DNA of 64,000 nucleotides from Mucilaginibacter gracilis (GTDB taxonomy: Bacteria > Bacteroidota > Bacteroidia > Sphingobacteriales > Sphingobacteriaceae), in NCBI RefSeq assembly GCF_003633615.1, contig NZ_RBKU01000001.1:3100001-3164000 (forward strand). Direction: 5' to 3'. Positions 29,724 through 37,964 of this stretch are shown here, piece by piece. The first letter of the stretch is position 1. Each line of letters begins with the position of its first letter. Below the pieces are notes generated by a model. That model did no database searches and had not been told where the DNA came from. It saw only the letters and a list, made by a program, of their open reading frames with translations. The position numbers and the translations under genes are program-made.

Positions 29724-30818
29724 TTGCAGCCCAAAGGCAATTTCAATTTGAACTTTATTATTACATATATTATTATTGCTTTAGGGCTATTCGCTTTCGC
29801 AGGGTTGTTTACCCTTATTGGCGTGTATGCCGAGCGTAAAGTGTCGGCTTTTATACAAGATAGGCTGGGCCCTGTTGAGGTAGGCAAGTTTGGCTCGCTC
29901 CAAACCCTGGCCGATATGCTTAAACTCATCCAAAAAGAGTTTATTACCCCCGCCGCCGCCGATCCGCTTTTGTTTGTGTTGGCTCCGGCCATCATATTTG
30001 TTTCGGTTTTTTTGGGTTTTGCAGCCATGCCCTGGGGGCCGGGCATTGTTCCCGTAAGCCTTAATATTGGGTTGTTTTACGTTTTTGCCATTGTTTCGGT
30101 AGAAACACTTGGCATATTAATGGCAGGCTGGGGTTCAAACAACAAATATTCGCTGTTGGGGGCCATGCGTTCGGTATCGCAAATTATCTCGTATGAAATA
30201 CCTGCCGGCTTCGCCATTATATCTGTAGTGATGATTGCCCAGACTTTAGACCTGCAAGAAATTGCCGCGCAACAAGGTATTTTGTCAACCGTACAGACCA
30301 AGTTTTTTGGTTTTTGGGATGTGAGCCATATAGGTGGTATATTGTCGTGGAATATATTTCGCGCACCGCATCTCATCATAGCATTCGTAATTTACTTTAT
30401 TGCATCGTTGGCCGAATCAAACCGGGCACCTTTTGATATTCCGGAAGCTGAATCGGAACTGGTGGCAGGTTTCCATACCGAATATACGGGTATGGGTTTC
30501 GCCTTTGTTTTTTTGGCCGAATATGCCATGATGTTTTTGGTATCTATGATAGCAGTGATGTTGTTTTTAGGGGCCTGGAACACACCATTTCCTAACTTTG
30601 ATGCCTTACGTTTGGCCGACTGGACTACAGGTTTAGGCTTTGGCATTTTATGGGTAACCTTAAAAACGCTGGCCCTTGTTTTTATACAAATGTGGATAAG
30701 GTGGACATTGCCACGTTTCCGCATAGATCAATTGATGAATTTGTGCTGGAAAGTGCTAACACCACTGGCCTTTATATGTATGCTCATATCGGGCATTTGG
30801 CGTATATTGTTGATGTAA
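29724..30818 (+). CDS. nuoH: NADH-quinone oxidoreductase subunit H
   Basis: A 364-residue membrane subunit with eight or so helices, forming the quinone-binding chamber of complex I. YAERKVSAFIQDRLGP near residues 34-49, the acidic loop RAPFDIPEAESELVAGFHTEY and the C-terminal WIRWTLPRFRIDQLM are diagnostic. The start is a TTG (QPKGNFNLNF follows), since no ATG lies before the first helix. TAAGTTTG overlaps that TTG and resembles a promoter element, so the exact start needs caution. It is the first gene of nuoHIJKLMN; nuoA-G are not in this window, where murI lies upstream instead. Confidence 0.95.
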   Translation: MQPKGNFNLNFIITYIIIALGLFAFAGLFTLIGVYAERKVSAFIQDRLGPVEVGKFGSLQTLADMLKLIQKEFITPAAADPLLFVLAPAIIFVSVFLGFAAMPWGPGIVPVSLNIGLFYVFAIVSVETLGILMAGWGSNNKYSLLGAMRSVSQIISYEIPAGFAIISVVMIAQTLDLQEIAAQQGILSTVQTKFFGFWDVSHIGGILSWNIFRAPHLIIAFVIYFIASLAESNRAPFDIPEAESELVAGFHTEYTGMGFAFVFLAEYAMMFLVSMIAVMLFLGAWNTPFPNFDALRLADWTTGLGFGILWVTLKTLALVFIQMWIRWTLPRFRIDQLMNLCWKVLTPLAFICMLISGIWRILLM

Positions 30819-30820
30819 AT

Positions 30821-31459
30821 ATGTTAAGAGGTGTAATAAACGGATTTAAAACTGCATGGGTAGGCTTGTTCCTCACCATAAAACACATGTTTGCTTCTAA
30901 TAAGCAAAGGGTGGTGGAGTCTGTAAAATCCGATAATTACTTTGAGCAGCAAAACGGCCACGGCACCAACACTATTCAATACCCTTCGCAACAGTTACCA
31001 GTACCCGAAGTTGGCCGTTACCAGTTGGATGTTGAAATTGACGACTGTATTGTTTGCGATTTGTGTGCCAAAATTTGTCCGGTGGATTGTATTACCATTG
31101 AATCTATCAAAGCTACCGAACTGATTGGTTTAACATCCGACGGTAGCCCCAAACGCATCCATGCAGCTAAGTTTGATATTGACATGGCGAAATGTATGTA
31201 TTGCGGCCTTTGTACCGTGGTTTGCCCAACGGAGTGCATTGTGATGACTAATGAATACGACGTAAGTGTGCCAAGTATTGATTTGTTGAATTACAAATTC
31301 TCGGACATGTCGCCCGAGTTTGCCCGCGAAAAGCAACGGGAATTAGATGCCCAACTGGCCGAAAAGCAAGCCGCAAAACTGGCGGCACAAAAAAAGAAAG
31401 AAGACGATGATAAAAGAAAAAAAGATAACGAAGGCGGGGAGGCCGGCGTTGTACTATGA
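30821..31459 (+). CDS. nuoI: NADH-quinone oxidoreductase subunit I
   Basis: A 212-residue iron-sulfur subunit. Two 4Fe-4S ferredoxin motifs, CIVCDLCAKICPVDC and CMYCGLCTVVCPTEC, carry clusters N6a and N6b of complex I. I start it at MLRGVINGFK, two bases after the nuoH stop; the longer frame beginning at 30650 only overlaps nuoH. The last 45 residues form a Lys/Glu/Ala-rich charged tail (AEKQAAKLAAQKKKEDDD and onward), longer than in many NuoI proteins. It overlaps nuoJ by four bases. Confidence 0.96.
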   Translation: MLRGVINGFKTAWVGLFLTIKHMFASNKQRVVESVKSDNYFEQQNGHGTNTIQYPSQQLPVPEVGRYQLDVEIDDCIVCDLCAKICPVDCITIESIKATELIGLTSDGSPKRIHAAKFDIDMAKCMYCGLCTVVCPTECIVMTNEYDVSVPSIDLLNYKFSDMSPEFAREKQRELDAQLAEKQAAKLAAQKKKEDDDKRKKDNEGGEAGVVL

Positions 31460-32007
31460 ACATAGGTGATGTTTTATTTGGCGTAATGGGTTTTGTTGCA
31501 TTGGCATCGGCGTTGCTGGTGGCGGCAAGCAATAACCTGGTGCGCTCATTATTTATGTTTTTTGTGACACTGTTTGCCATAGCCGGCCTATATGTTTTTG
31601 CCCTTGCAGATTTTGTTGCTGTTACCCAAATTGTAATTTACGTTGGCGGCGTTTTAGTACTCATGCTTTTTGCGTTTATGCTTTCGGGAAAAGAAACCCT
31701 CAATAACCTGAAGCAAAGCAATAGCCGTTTTATTTCGCTTGGTAAGGTGCCCGCAGTTTTAGTGGCTTTGCTGTTTTTAATTGTACTGGCAAACGCCATT
31801 TTAAAAGTGCAGCCTGATAGCTTACCCTGGATAAAGGCATCTGCGCAAAGCAACAACATTATAAAACCTACTGATAACATGGTAAATAATATAGGCATTA
31901 ACCTGATGACGCGCTATTTACTGCCGTTTGAAGTAGTATCTGTTTTATTAATGATGACTTTAATTGGTGCTGCCCACCTGGCCCGCAAGGAGGAGCATAA
32001 ATTATGA
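31456..32007 (+). CDS. nuoJ: NADH-quinone oxidoreductase subunit J
   Basis: A 183-residue membrane subunit with five helices. The conserved region FVAVTQIVIYVGGVLVLMLF, including the pi-bulge helix of ND6, is near residues 52-73; LLPFEVVSVLLMMTLIGA is the last helix. Overlapping ATGA junctions with nuoI and nuoK show tight coupling. Confidence 0.95.
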   Translation: MNIGDVLFGVMGFVALASALLVAASNNLVRSLFMFFVTLFAIAGLYVFALADFVAVTQIVIYVGGVLVLMLFAFMLSGKETLNNLKQSNSRFISLGKVPAVLVALLFLIVLANAILKVQPDSLPWIKASAQSNNIIKPTDNMVNNIGINLMTRYLLPFEVVSVLLMMTLIGAAHLARKEEHKL

Positions 32008-32309
32008 TAACGTTAAGCAATTTTTTGCTCATAGGTGCAGGCTTATTTTGCATAGGTATTTACATGGTGCTATCCAAACGTAACGCAATACAGGTATTGA
32101 TAGGGATTGAGCTTATTATCAATTCGGCCATATTAAATTTGGTAGCTTTTGGCAGGTATGATAAGGTTAACAATGCAGGGCAATCATTTGCGCTGTTTGC
32201 GATAGTATTAGCGGCGGCGGCAGTAGCTGTGGCACTTGCTATTATATTAAACGTGTACCGCCAGTACAAAACCATTAACCCGGCTGAAGTAGAGAGTTTA
32301 AAAGGATGA
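32004..32309 (+). CDS. nuoK: NADH-quinone oxidoreductase subunit K
   Basis: A 101-residue, three-helix antiporter-like subunit (ND4L). GIYMVLSKRNAIQVLIGIELIINSAILNLVAF contains the conserved Glu of helix 2, and FALFAIVLAAAAVAVALAIILNVYR the second Glu-equivalent region. It overlaps nuoJ and the next small gene by four bases each. Confidence 0.95.
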   Translation: MITLSNFLLIGAGLFCIGIYMVLSKRNAIQVLIGIELIINSAILNLVAFGRYDKVNNAGQSFALFAIVLAAAAVAVALAIILNVYRQYKTINPAEVESLKG

Positions 32310-32827
32310 AAAAAACACTGTTTATACTGCTTTTCGTACTAACCGGTATTACATCGGTTTCGGCACAAACAAAAAAGAATGCATACGAAGATAGTGTGTT
32401 GTGTGTTGTTGACGGTGTAAAGCATAGGGGTGTGCCTAAAATAGACACTAATTTTATTGCCGAAATAATGGTTTACAAAGACCACGACGAAGCCCTTAAA
32501 CAATTTGGCAACGAAGCCCGTAATGGGGTTGTTATAATTAACACGCTTAGCTTTGAAATTAGCGAATATCAAAAAAGGTTAAGCTTGTTTTCAAACAGCT
32601 ACAAGTAATATTTAGCAGCATACAACAATAACGACGAGTATATAACTTATTATATCAATAAAAAAATTCACCTATCGGCAGATAGGGAAACTATAAACAA
32701 ACTTTACAGCCTTAAATCGGAGAATATAGAAAGTGTTACCACTCAGTTTGTCGCCATCGGAAAAAAAGATCCAAAGAATGGGTTAAAAAAGGCAATAGGA
32801 TCTGTTCACGTCACAACAAAAAATTAA
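32306..32827 (+). pseudogene. Secreted protein with two plug-like repeats, broken by an in-frame TAA
   Basis: A 173-codon frame beginning on an ATGA overlap with nuoK, with a signal peptide (MKKTLFILLFVLTGITSVSAQ). Codon 101 (32606-32608) is TAA, but the same frame stays open for 72 more codons and ends with TAA three bases before the nuoL TTG. The first half contains VLCVVDGVKHRG ... FIAEIMVYKDHDEAL ... ARNGVVIINT, which resembles the TonB plug pattern 'VVDG...IESIEVLKDA...GVVIITT'. The second half repeats the pattern (SENIESVTTQFVAIG ... IGSVHVTTK). The stop falls between the two halves. A recent nonsense mutation is the simplest reading; a functional 100-residue product from the first half, or stop readthrough, is possible. 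A gene of this type is not part of complex I. Confidence 0.8.
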
Positions 32828-32830
32828 AAT

Positions 32831-34849
32831 TTGGAACTAACTCAACATCAGGCTCTTGTTACCCAGCTCGCAATTTTAGCGGTTGTGTTGCCTTTTGTTG
32901 CATTTTTGGTTAACTATTTGTTTGTTCCAAAACAAAGCAAACTATCGGGCGGAGTGTCTGCTGTGGCCATATTGCTAACGTTTGCACTTTCGGCCTATGT
33001 GTTTTTCCAGATATGGGATCAGTCGCCAATACATGTTAGGCATCTTTGGTTTTCCATTGGCGATAGCCAGGTTTATGTTGGCGTTTGGCTCAATAATTTA
33101 TCTGTTTTAATGCTGTTACTGGTTTCGGCAATAGCCCTGCCGGTACATATATACAGCATGGCCTACATGGATGGCGACGAACGTTACAGTACTTACTTTG
33201 CCTACCTTAGCTTTTTCTGTTTTGCCATGTTGGCTCTGGTTATTATGGATAACCTGCTTTTGTTATATGCCTTTTGGGAACTGGTAGGCTTTGCATCGTA
33301 CCTGCTCATCGGCTTTTGGTTTACCCGGGAAAAAGCAGTACAGGCCAACAAAAAAGCATTCATTATGAACCGCATTGGCGATGTTGGGCTTCTTATCGGC
33401 ATCCTCATTATCTATTCGCACTATCACACGTTTGATATGGTTACCTTGTTTGATGGCGGTAACCCCCTTGTGGCTGGCGCAAGTATTGGTACGCCATGGA
33501 TAACCCTTGCAGGCCTATGCCTGTTATGCGGTGCTATAGCCAAATCAGCACAGTTCCCGCTGCATACCTGGCTGCCTGATGCTATGGAAGGGCCAACCTC
33601 GGTTTCTGCATTAATTCATGCCGCAACAATGGTTGCCGCAGGTATATTTTTATTAGGGCGCGTTTACCCGGTATTTAACCAGCATGTTTTAATTATTATA
33701 GCCATTATTGGATGCTTTACGGCTTTTATGGCCGCCACCATAGCACTTACTCAAACCGATTTAAAGCGCATTTTGGCTTATTCTACCATATCGCAATTAG
33801 GTTTTATGATGCTAGGTATGGGTGTTGGGGCTTACTCATCATCATTGTTTCATTTAGCCACACATGCATTTTTTAAATGCTTGCTTTTTTTGGGCGCAGG
33901 GGTTATCATTCACCAAATGAATCACCTCAAGCATGAGCATCATTTAGATATTGACCCTCAAAATATACTGCACATGGGTGGCCTGCGTAAGTTGATGCCC
34001 GTAACCTTTATTACGTGTTGCATAGCCTCGTTAGCACTAATAGGTTTCCCGTTAACATCCGGCTATTTATCAAAAGACGGCATCCTTATCCAATCCTTCA
34101 ACTGGGCGCAGGATAAAGGCTGGGCATATTATATTATCCCGATAGGGGCCATGCTTACCAGTTTGCTAACTACGTTTTATATTGCGAGGCTCATATTCAA
34201 AGTGTTTTTTGGCGAATCGCGCTTAAAACAAATTGATCCGGAAATTGAACCAAAAGCTCATGAAGGCAACTGGCTGTTATCGGTACCCATGATGTTGCTG
34301 GCGGCTTGCAGTTTGTTTCCATTGTTCTCGTTTAACCCGTTCGGTTTAAAACAAGCATGGTTGCTGCATGGCTTTGCTGCCACCGCCGAAGCCGAAAATA
34401 GCTTCCGTTTATGGGTTCCGGTTATGATAAACGTAGCGGGTTTAGCAATTATATATATGGCCTACCTCATTTACGCAAAGCAAAGTATACATTGGTTTAA
34501 ACAAAAAGGCGTGCTTTTTAACCTATCATACAACCAATGGTACATTGATAGTTTTTATAACCAGGTAATAGTTAAACTGGTGTTGGGCTTAGGCAAAACG
34601 CTGTACTGGTTTGATAAGCACGTTTTAGATGGCTTTATCAATTTGCTGGCCGCAACGGGTATACTGCTCGGCAAAATTTCGGCTCTGTTTGATCAATATA
34701 TTATTGATGGACTGCTGCATTTAATAGCTTACGTAGTAAAACAAACGGGTAACTTTATCCGTGGCTTTCAAACAGGCAGGGTACAAAATTATTTGCTAAC
34801 TATGCTGCTCATCATTTTGGTTGTATATGTTTTAAAGACGTTTATTTAA
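32831..34849 (+). CDS. nuoL: NADH-quinone oxidoreductase subunit L
   Basis: A 672-residue proton-pumping antiporter-like subunit (ND5). The helices contain the conserved Glu in LLYAFWELVGFASYLLIGFWF, the Lys and His in PLHTWLPDAMEGPTSVSALIHAATMVAAG, and the broken-helix segment near ITCCIASLALIGFPLTSGYLSKD. The C-terminal long lateral helix follows with a long hydrophobic tail. The start is TTG, three bases after the end of the small disrupted frame; no ATG is suitably placed. Confidence 0.95.
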   Translation: MELTQHQALVTQLAILAVVLPFVAFLVNYLFVPKQSKLSGGVSAVAILLTFALSAYVFFQIWDQSPIHVRHLWFSIGDSQVYVGVWLNNLSVLMLLLVSAIALPVHIYSMAYMDGDERYSTYFAYLSFFCFAMLALVIMDNLLLLYAFWELVGFASYLLIGFWFTREKAVQANKKAFIMNRIGDVGLLIGILIIYSHYHTFDMVTLFDGGNPLVAGASIGTPWITLAGLCLLCGAIAKSAQFPLHTWLPDAMEGPTSVSALIHAATMVAAGIFLLGRVYPVFNQHVLIIIAIIGCFTAFMAATIALTQTDLKRILAYSTISQLGFMMLGMGVGAYSSSLFHLATHAFFKCLLFLGAGVIIHQMNHLKHEHHLDIDPQNILHMGGLRKLMPVTFITCCIASLALIGFPLTSGYLSKDGILIQSFNWAQDKGWAYYIIPIGAMLTSLLTTFYIARLIFKVFFGESRLKQIDPEIEPKAHEGNWLLSVPMMLLAACSLFPLFSFNPFGLKQAWLLHGFAATAEAENSFRLWVPVMINVAGLAIIYMAYLIYAKQSIHWFKQKGVLFNLSYNQWYIDSFYNQVIVKLVLGLGKTLYWFDKHVLDGFINLLAATGILLGKISALFDQYIIDGLLHLIAYVVKQTGNFIRGFQTGRVQNYLLTMLLIILVVYVLKTFI

Positions 34850-34852
34850 ATA

Positions 34853-36445
34853 ATGAATATATTAACGCTCCTTATTTTTTCACCTTTACTCTTTGGGTTC
34901 ATCATTTTACTTATCCCAACCGAGTATCGTAACATATTTAGGTACTTAACTTTGCTGGCTACATTGGTACAGTTGGGCATTAGCATATGGCTGTATTTTA
35001 ACTTTAAAACAGGTGCGGCTTTCGCCGGAATAGCCAACGAAGGGCAATACCAGTTTGTTGAAAAACTGCACTGGATAGGCCTTAACCTTGGCGGCATGGG
35101 CCGTATGCAGATAGATTATTTTGTTGGCATTGATGGCATTTCTGTTTTGCTGCTCGTTATGTCGTCGGTTGTGATGGTAATTGCGGCTCTGTCTTCGTGG
35201 GAGATCAATAAAAATCATAAAGGTTATTTTGCGTTGTTTTTATTGTTGGATGTTGCCATAACAGGCGTATTCTGCTCGCTTGATTTCTTCCTGTTTTATA
35301 TCTTTTACGAACTGATGCTTTTGCCCCTGTATTTCCTTATCGGGATATGGGGCGGCGTTCGGCGCGAATATGCGGCCATCAAATTCTTTTTATATACGCT
35401 GTTCGGTTCGGTTTTTATGCTGTTGGTTATGGTAGGGTTGTACTTTTCGGTAAAAGATCCGGCAACGGGCAACCACACCTTTAACATGATACAAATGATG
35501 AACCCTGCAAATTACGATGCGGGGTCGGTATTTAGTGTACTTGGTAAGCACCTGTTATTTGGCTTGCCGGCACGCACTGTTGGCTTTATTGTATTGTTTG
35601 TAGCCTTTGCTATTAAGGTGCCGGTTGTACCCTTCCACACCTGGCTGCCGGATGCGCACGTGGAAGCACCTACGCCTGTATCAATTATATTGGCCGGCGT
35701 GTTGCTCAAGGTAGGTGGCTATGGTATTATACGCATCTGCTTAGGTATCTTCCCGGAAGTTGCCCTGAACGGGGCTTTTTGGCTCGGACTTTTAGGTGTA
35801 GTATCTATATTATACGGCGCGTTAAATGCCCTTGCCCAGCGCGATTTAAAACGCCTCATTGCTTTTTCGTCCATCTCGCACATGGGTTTTGTACTCCTCG
35901 GTATCGCCTCAAATACTGCCGAAGGTGTAAGCGGTGCCGTTATGCAAATGATAAGTCACGGCTTTTTATCAACCATGCTGTTTTATTTGGTGGGTGTTAT
36001 TTATATCCGCGTACACGACAGGGATATTTACAGTTTCCGCGGACTAGGCACCCTATTGCCGCGCTATACGGTGTTTATCATGATAGCCTTTTTTGCTTCT
36101 CTCGGCTTGCCAGGTTTTTCGGCTTTTATTGCCGAAGCATTTAGCTTGGTTGGTGCTTTTAACTCCACAACCATACCTAACTGGATGGCCGTTTGCGGCT
36201 CGTTGGGTATATTATTAAGTGCTGCTTATTTTTTATGGACGCTACAGCGGATGTTTTTTGGCGAAACCCGGCTAAAAGGAGGCGAAATTTGGAAACTTGC
36301 CTTAACCGACCTGGGCAAACGCGAACTACTGGCATTGGTGCCGCTTTCGCTGCTTACCCTGGCTTTGGGTATTATGCCATCGCTGGTTTTCGATAAAATT
36401 AACGATTCGGTATTGGCATTAATACAATTGATTCAACCCCGGTAA
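34853..36445 (+). CDS. nuoM: NADH-quinone oxidoreductase subunit M
   Basis: A 530-residue antiporter-like subunit (ND4) with 14 helices. Diagnostic segments are FYIFYELMLLPLYFLIGIWGG (conserved Glu), VPFHTWLPDAHVEAPTPVSIILAGVLLKVGGYG (conserved Lys) and DLKRLIAFSSISHMGFVLLG. Four bases after nuoL. Length is normal. Confidence 0.95.
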   Translation: MNILTLLIFSPLLFGFIILLIPTEYRNIFRYLTLLATLVQLGISIWLYFNFKTGAAFAGIANEGQYQFVEKLHWIGLNLGGMGRMQIDYFVGIDGISVLLLVMSSVVMVIAALSSWEINKNHKGYFALFLLLDVAITGVFCSLDFFLFYIFYELMLLPLYFLIGIWGGVRREYAAIKFFLYTLFGSVFMLLVMVGLYFSVKDPATGNHTFNMIQMMNPANYDAGSVFSVLGKHLLFGLPARTVGFIVLFVAFAIKVPVVPFHTWLPDAHVEAPTPVSIILAGVLLKVGGYGIIRICLGIFPEVALNGAFWLGLLGVVSILYGALNALAQRDLKRLIAFSSISHMGFVLLGIASNTAEGVSGAVMQMISHGFLSTMLFYLVGVIYIRVHDRDIYSFRGLGTLLPRYTVFIMIAFFASLGLPGFSAFIAEAFSLVGAFNSTTIPNWMAVCGSLGILLSAAYFLWTLQRMFFGETRLKGGEIWKLALTDLGKRELLALVPLSLLTLALGIMPSLVFDKINDSVLALIQLIQPR

Positions 36446-36446
36446 A

Positions 36447-37964
36447 ATGCACGATTTGTTACCCTATATACCGCAACAGTTAAGCAACATCCGTGCAGGC
36501 TTACCCTATTTTATGCCCGAACTATGCCTGGGCGCACTTTTCATCCTGGTATTGGTAACCGATCTGTTTTCGGGCAAAACATCAACCTGGCTTTGCCGTG
36601 CCCTTAGCGTGGCAGGTTTACTGGTTGTAATATACCAGTGTCTTTGGCAGTTTGTATTACTTGTAAGTGCCAAACAATCAACCGTGTTTATTTTTGATGG
36701 TATGCTGATGCTGCATCACACAGCTATTCTTTTTAAGCTGGTTATTGATGTTGTAGCCATTTTAATACTGCTTTATATCCCGTGGGATAAGGCCCTTCGA
36801 GCTCATTTTAAAGGCCTTAACGATTTGTATTCCATTATCATAGCATCGGTTTTGGGCCTGCATTTAATGGTAATGGCGGTAAACCTGCTCAGTATCTACA
36901 TTTCTATCGAGATGGTGTCCATAGCATCATACCTCATGGTAGCCTACCGGTCGGATACCTCAATAAGTACCGAGGCAGGCCTTAAATATGTTTTGTTTGG
37001 CGCAGTATCATCTGCAATTATGCTTTATGGCATATCATTGCTTTACGGTTTCAGCGGTTCGCTCGATCTTTTTAGCGCCATGTTCATTAACGGATTAAGC
37101 GCCGCCAACCCTACCGCAGTCGGCTTGGCTATAACGTTGGTTATGGTAGGTATAGGTTTTAAACTATCGTTTGTGCCCATGCATTTTTGGGTGCCCGATG
37201 TTTACCAGGGTGCGGCCACACCCGTTACGGCGTATTTATCAACTTTGCCCAAAATTGCAGGCTTTGCACTCTTTTGCAATTTCCTTACCCCTTTCATCTT
37301 CTTCTCCGCAAAATGGGCGGCCTTTGATTTTCGCTTGTTCTTATCCATAGCAGGAATTGTTACTATGATAGTTGGTAACCTGGCTGCCATATGGCAAACC
37401 AACATAAAAAGGTTACTGGCATATTCAAGCATAGGGCATACAGGGTTCGCATTGATGGCACTTGCCACTTTTTCGGCACAGGGCATTTCTTCGTTGTTGT
37501 TTTACCTAACTGTTTACGCCATAGCAAACATAGGTGCGCTTATGCTTACAACGCACTACGTAAATAAAATTGGTGCTCACGATCTGGATAGTTATAAAGG
37601 AGTGGGTCTTCGTTATCCATTACCTTCGGTTTGTTTTGTTATCATCCTGGTGTCGTTGGCTGGCTTGCCTGTGTCGGTGGGGTTTAACGGAAAGCTGATG
37701 GTGTTTTCATCGGTTTACCAGGTTTACCAGCAAAGCCATAACGTTTGGCTTTTAGCCTTGATGATAACAGGTGCTGCTACCACTGTTGTATCTCTGTTTT
37801 ATTATATTAAGATACCCCTGTACCTCTTCCTCAAAAAAAACGAGCATCACGTGGAAGACCAATTGGCTACCCATCAATACCTGCTGATTTTTATCTGCAT
37901 CATCAGTGCGTTTGTATTGTCGGTAGGGGTATTTCCGCAATTGTTAGGTATTTTGCAGAGTTAG
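36447..37964 (+). CDS. nuoN: NADH-quinone oxidoreductase subunit N
   Basis: A 505-residue antiporter-like subunit (ND2) with 14 helices. It contains LLSIYISIEMVSIASYLMVAYRS (conserved Glu), FVPMHFWVPDVYQGAATPVTAYLSTLPKIAGF and IKRLLAYSSIGHTGFALMAL. It starts two bases after nuoM and is the last gene of the operon; a GC-rich structured repeat follows. Confidence 0.95.
   Translation: MHDLLPYIPQQLSNIRAGLPYFMPELCLGALFILVLVTDLFSGKTSTWLCRALSVAGLLVVIYQCLWQFVLLVSAKQSTVFIFDGMLMLHHTAILFKLVIDVVAILILLYIPWDKALRAHFKGLNDLYSIIIASVLGLHLMVMAVNLLSIYISIEMVSIASYLMVAYRSDTSISTEAGLKYVLFGAVSSAIMLYGISLLYGFSGSLDLFSAMFINGLSAANPTAVGLAITLVMVGIGFKLSFVPMHFWVPDVYQGAATPVTAYLSTLPKIAGFALFCNFLTPFIFFSAKWAAFDFRLFLSIAGIVTMIVGNLAAIWQTNIKRLLAYSSIGHTGFALMALATFSAQGISSLLFYLTVYAIANIGALMLTTHYVNKIGAHDLDSYKGVGLRYPLPSVCFVIILVSLAGLPVSVGFNGKLMVFSSVYQVYQQSHNVWLLALMITGAATTVVSLFYYIKIPLYLFLKKNEHHVEDQLATHQYLLIFICIISAFVLSVGVFPQLLGILQS

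Follow-up and report, generated by a model that had tools for sequence, protein, structure and literature searches.

The frame between nuoK and nuoL in the window, the 64,000-nucleotide stretch of the Mucilaginibacter gracilis genome analysed here, is very likely a normal member of a family of genes found at this junction across the genus; in one lineage, a recent nonsense mutation would have inactivated or shortened it. Its members, called slot genes after the interval they occupy, form a probably genus-specific family, at least for the most part, and encode half-plug proteins related to the plug of SusC receptors that are probably exported. As a lesion the stop codon is ordinary; what is noteworthy is the variable slot.

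The interrupted frame between nuoK and nuoL

The slot frame starts with an ATG at 32306 and overlaps the end of nuoK at 32309 by four bases (ATGA). In full it comprises 174 codons, with a TAA at codon 101, 72 further sense codons and a final TAA at 32825–32827. Three bases lie between this end and the nuoL frame, which has its putative start, a TTG, at 32831. The original prediction had described the overlap, the early stop, the open codons and the distance to nuoL in the same way, and all four were confirmed. The features are, by position and strand:

29724..37964, + strand: nuoH–nuoN cluster hosting the slot, by eye without adjoining nuoA–G; genes named by resemblance
32004..32309, + strand: nuoK (101 aa), upstream flank of the slot, aligned with the nuoK of relatives; named by resemblance
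32306..32608, + strand: truncated slot gene, 100 aa to the in-frame TAA
32306..32368, + strand: putative signal peptide (residues 1–21), by eye; a lower-confidence helix at residues 4–13 in the model
32398..32545, + strand: SusC-type half-plug domain (PLUG profile E 2e-8; TIGR04056 E 9e-5, below cut-off; predicted fold)
32558..32740, + strand: C-terminal module (CTM), interrupted at model position 19 by the TAA; relatives-only profile
32606..32608, + strand: in-frame TAA at codon 101, in a column that is variable among relatives
32609..32827, + strand: 72 codons of former coding sequence (from homology and openness) plus the original stop
32831..34849, + strand: nuoL, TTG at the frame start, downstream flank of the slot

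A CTM profile built from relatives only matched the read-through frame (with X at the stop) at 57.5 bits and without a gap, against 33.2 bits for the downstream half alone and 13.3 bits for residues 85–100, with which the upstream half ends. Since this profile runs gapless through the stop, it shows that the 72 downstream codons are former coding sequence and that the gene was once full length. An open stretch of this length was retained in a fraction of 0.0028 of 5,000 composition-preserving shuffles and is unlikely by chance. That the second half is translated on its own was considered and rejected, as the 72 codons contain no in-frame ATG, GTG or TTG. In a stop-tolerant scan the window stretch matched the PLUG profile at E 2e-8 and the CTM profile at E 3e-17 with one stop inside. 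When CTM scores were calculated by leave-one-out, 17 of the 81 member copies scored below the window copy, which hence lies inside the range of intact members and displays little visible decay.

The stop replaces a variable residue inside the conserved Y-K-x-Y-L motif of the CTM; this column holds an ordinary residue, of 13 kinds, in 79 of the 81 CTM copies of relatives and a gap in the other two. These copies derive by construction from stop-bounded frames, and some genomes were fetched twice, so the real test of brokenness was the stop-tolerant scan of the junctions. Only two of 75 occupied junctions were broken: the window, which has the only in-frame stop, and L077 (G027), which is frameshifted at seven consecutive A between plug and CTM, perhaps through an assembly error. 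The case that all relatives end at the same stop with unconserved sequence behind it, named in the original prediction as the outcome against it, does not describe the family: the downstream codons belong to a gapless 57.5-bit match and the stop occurs in the window only.

Slot genes in Mucilaginibacter and beyond

A search for nuoL covered 149 genomes of the genus and led to 139 nuoK–nuoL junctions in 138 of them (two in one genome); 11 genomes were omitted because their best nuoL match was weak and probably paralogous, or because they had none. The gap was below 30 bases at 33 junctions, 30–60 bases at two, 60–250 bases at 29 and above 250 bases at 74; at one further junction nuoK fell outside the stretch and slot genes were present. 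As the original prediction had proposed, relatives were thus searched for a gene in this position, and 75 of the 139 junctions proved occupied, all encoding half-plug repeats and/or the CTM and all unbroken except the two named above. With two profiles, neither a half-plug nor a CTM was found at E 0.01 in the 64 shorter gaps, and no remnant of a lost gene reached this value in the gaps of 60–250 bases. The same kinds of slot gene occurred at the junctions of 80 named records kept from 163 relatives, most of them Mucilaginibacter.

A junction holds zero to three slot genes (three in tandem at L141). Their products, of 100–440 aa, consist of up to four half-plug repeats, usually followed by the CTM. 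Plugs without CTM were present at seven of the 75 occupied junctions; the plug-only proteins of L050 and L095 have 105 aa each and end 7 and 3 bases before nuoL. L126 has a CTM and no plug match. The last slot frame ended a median of 7 bases from nuoL, with 71 of the 75 distances between −28 and +11 and the remaining four at 30, 74, 96 and 167 bases; the full frame of the window and the shifted frame of L077 were used for this count. The earlier claim that the tight spacing in the window fits the full-length frame only is borne out by these ends at nuoL; the truncated frame would end 222 bases short of it. The window copy hence lies where the family lies, between nuoK and nuoL and abutting both, and has half-plug and CTM, but its frame is broken. 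Residues 1–21 of the window frame form a putative Sec-like signal by eye, and slot proteins are probably exported via such a signal peptide. In L042, L049 and L055 a translated short repeat (ARNEAISK..CQS), which looks like an inserted repeat element, precedes the signal-like stretch. The slot genes of L033 and L059 encode 434 and 440 aa; MORN and TPR repeats precede plug and CTM in L033, and L059 appears alike by eye.

Outside the genus, 17 other genera of this family contributed 37 measured junctions (L190, L219–L221, L231–L263), all without a slot gene and with gaps of −13 to 68 bases. The nuoK–nuoL junction, tight in these genera, has been opened in Mucilaginibacter to modular, barrel-less SusC half-plugs. 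The CTM profile was also searched against 251 genomes of the family and 295 of the class, a search that scores limited candidates per genome and whose absences are no proof. Matches were found in 42 of the 251 family genomes, 25 in Mucilaginibacter and 17 in other genera. Among the 25, the CTM lay at the nuoK–nuoL slot in 24 (window included) and elsewhere in one, the near relative G057. The frame concerned (L184, G057:C2) encodes 349 aa with plug, CTM-like part and an extra C-terminal region, lies outside the nuo cluster next to a thioredoxin reductase-like frame, and belongs to a genome with an empty slot. In 14 of the 17 other-genus matches only columns 32/34–86 of the profile aligned, with SusC-like plugs in frames longer than 1,000 aa, and the second half of slot proteins is hence plug-like in the family at large. 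The other three were frames of 186–189 aa (L181, L182 and L185) with a similar plug and linker. The class sample added two weak matches, in frames of 707 and 1077 aa. In G393, from another family of the class, a gap of 857 bases between nuoK-like and nuoL-like frames (L209) holds a 113-aa frame that is unlike the plug family by eye. No account of nuoK–nuoL slot genes was found among the titles and abstract openings covered in an open-access library, where searches naming Mucilaginibacter returned no paper.

Plug resemblance, host complex and possible roles

The first half of the window frame matched TIGR04056 at E = 9e-5 (21 bits against a cut-off of 368) and TIGR04057 at 13.6 bits (cut-off 46.2), neither half matched the Pfam Plug model, and a 1164-aa frame of its own genome, SusC-like by length, was matched at E = 1.4e-5. 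The two plug-like halves with the stop between them, as first described, are real but weak in the window copy. Relatives are clearer: four of seven passed the Pfam Plug cut-off of 23.9 bits (115.4, 43.3, 41.3 and 24.3 bits), L050 stayed below it at 17.5 bits, and L026 and L012 had no match. L129, with four half-plug copies, reached E 2.2e-33 for Pfam Plug, the SusC signature was matched at E 1.8e-55, and the family sequence profile matched SusC structures, down to E 2.3e-14.

The structure was predicted for L301, a protein of 178 aa with window-like architecture, from an alignment of 24 sequences (mean pLDDT 84). In the model, a linker of two helices joins a half-plug to a second sheet, which is degenerate. 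The model has no beta-barrel, and the window frame has only 174 codons. The half-plug was overlaid on plugs of SusC and other TonB-dependent receptors, on one SusC plug with 1.4 A over 51 residues (Z 4.8) and best on YncD (Z 5.5), Z values of 2 to 5.5 in this comparison being modest. Foldseek returned no match for the whole model up to E 0.001. For the CTM, a known fold was sought and dropped, as only weak NTF2-like or designed-protein matches were returned, which do not thereby make it a new fold.

The genome of M. gracilis contains two complex I gene sets. A full-looking 14-gene operon, nuoA–N, is located at 1.58–1.60 Mb and has a nuoK–nuoL gap of 59 bases. The second set is scattered and lacks a nuoF of its own: the window cluster comprises only nuoH–N by eye, nuoB has a further copy at 3.55 Mb, and nuoC and nuoD are found again as a pair at 5.14 Mb, both nuoD matches being just below the family cut-off, while the single nuoF match of the genome lies in the full operon. 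Subunits outside the families tested are named by resemblance. The slot hence appears to sit in the gene set of a complex I without NuoEFG, as judged from the search for nuoF. The original description of the gene as lying inside the nuo operon holds for its place between nuoK and nuoL; the host set is not the 14-gene operon of the genome.

What an exported plug does beside complex I genes is the question raised by these findings. One reading with a realistic chance, if short of an even one, is that slot proteins are unrelated to complex I and act in outer-membrane uptake, where TonB-dependent receptors or SusD-like lids would have them as decoys or partners, while borrowing the expression of the operon. 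Relatives strongly resemble SusC plugs in sequence and predicted fold; this, together with similar architectures found away from nuo loci both in other genera and in G057, and the 64 of 139 junctions with no detectable slot gene, is in line with such a role; against it stand the abutting spacing and the presence of the module at nuoK–nuoL in 24 of 25 matched Mucilaginibacter genomes, and no tie to Ton components was found. The role that we ourselves propose for the intact protein, tentatively and with considerable doubt, is that of a periplasmic partner or assembly aid of the complex I without NuoEFG. Start and stop codons that overlap or abut would tie its synthesis to that of the membrane arm, and the SusC plug fold would serve it for binding; closing a pore would not be its task, since there is no barrel. 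To our knowledge, the slot protein corresponds to no known complex I subunit. A wider scheme, rather unlikely in its entirety, would have half-plug proteins built from SusC-derived modules that are swapped by recombination, produced in lockstep with NuoK and NuoL, and active on the periplasmic face of the NuoEFG-less complex or as a link between complex I and TonB-dependent uptake, with the window protein being pared to a single plug.

Turnover of the slot, origin of the stop and known systems

dN/dS was estimated on 28 close pairs of intact slot genes, of which 23 gave an estimate and five did not; many dS values were near saturation, and the window copy, without a close homologue, was outside this set. 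The ratio was 0.04–0.13 in 19 of the 23 pairs and 0.17, 0.19, 0.32 (L283/L293) and 0.35 (L318/L325) in the others. For nuoL of the same genomes it was 0.02–0.13 and lower than for the slot genes in nearly every pair. These pairs of intact relatives indicate purifying selection on the family where it is present. In L283/L293 the slot dS of 0.18 is well below the nuoL dS of 0.73, which hints at exchange. Between L318 and L325, identity per 100 columns is 84–100% in the flanks but drops to 0.29–0.76 in the plug part, which suggests that a cassette was replaced between similar flanks; fast divergence of the plug part is the alternative. On a tree of nuoK and nuoL, occupancy of the slot required at least 27 changes, against a mean of 46 and a minimum of 38 after shuffling; 27 is a rough count, as the tree was built from about 180 residues and placed two members of another genus, L219 and L221, inside Mucilaginibacter. 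The slot is empty in the four nearest neighbours of the window on this tree (L003, L004, L005 and L007), which makes the gene dispensable, and holds a three-part gene in the fifth (L006). Together these data indicate that slot genes have been gained and lost repeatedly, and the family combines signs of recombination with many pairs of presence and absence within one genus.

The nonsense mutation, one of four options in the original prediction, is the best supported by the gapless profile and the single in-frame stop among 75 occupied junctions. A recent mutation would have cut the gene in the window lineage and left a 100-aa precursor, the mature part of which would be one self-contained half-plug and one helix. 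The model of this product contains a complete strand–strand–strand–helix–strand half-plug followed by one helix; from residue 31 onwards, every block of ten residues averages more than 90 in pLDDT. Loss of function may accordingly be partial, given this self-contained domain, and truncation need not abolish function, given the seven junctions with plugs only. A loss of the gene would fit a slot that is repeatedly emptied and refilled. Dating of the lesion by new stops was dropped as too weak: at 0.1 substitutions per site the probability that 216 bases acquire no new stop is still 0.44, and the absence of further lesions dates the stop poorly.

That the shortening was selected, so that the 100-aa form is a working protein, a single exported half-plug, is unlikely, even though a full half-plug is predicted for the product, intact plug-only relatives exist and the broken L077 likewise keeps its plug and loses the CTM; L050 and L095 end next to nuoL, whereas the window leaves 222 bases of old coding sequence, and one genome provides no selection signal for a short form. 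A sequencing or assembly error at 32606–32608, with the gene intact in the cell, is still less probable. A lone stop in an otherwise undamaged gene would be compatible with it, and L077, with a frameshift resembling a typical assembly error, implies that errors of some kind enter the genome collection. In the window, however, the frame is kept on both sides of the change, which does not lie in a homopolymer, the neighbouring nuo frames are intact, and the genome is a single contig of 6.66 Mb with 99.99% completeness. Lastly, programmed readthrough of the TAA into a short and a long form, also raised originally, is hardly credible in spite of the open and well conserved downstream codons: no other occupied junction has a stop there, positions 32000–33200 have no Rfam match, the TAA precedes a T, a combination that terminates efficiently in E. 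coli, and a young nonsense mutation accounts for the same facts.

Three known or comparable systems can be set beside the slot genes. An 11-subunit complex I lacking NuoEFG is known, and the host set resembles it in its nuoHIJKLMN cluster, its scattered nuoB and nuoC/nuoD, and the single nuoF located in the other operon; in the titles and abstract openings covered by the literature search, no extra gene between nuoK and nuoL was found for this complex. The plug-plus-linker proteins L181, L182 and L185 are like the window frame in their signal-like start (by eye), one plug, a linker and a degenerate second plug, with weak matches (E 3e-7 to 8e-5); by eye, their stretches of 3.2 kb showed neither nuoK nor nuoL. 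The third system is that of the SusC/RagA receptors (TIGR04056, TIGR04057; Plug PF07715). Slot repeats match the C-terminal half of the plug (about positions 55–107 of PF07715), with the window copy below all model cut-offs, and slot proteins merit an annotation other than that of the TonB-dependent receptors whose models their repeats match. In contrast to these receptors, slot proteins are only 100–440 aa long and have no beta-barrel; they carry the C-terminal half of the plug alone, often in tandem, add a further C-terminal module and are encoded within a nuo cluster.
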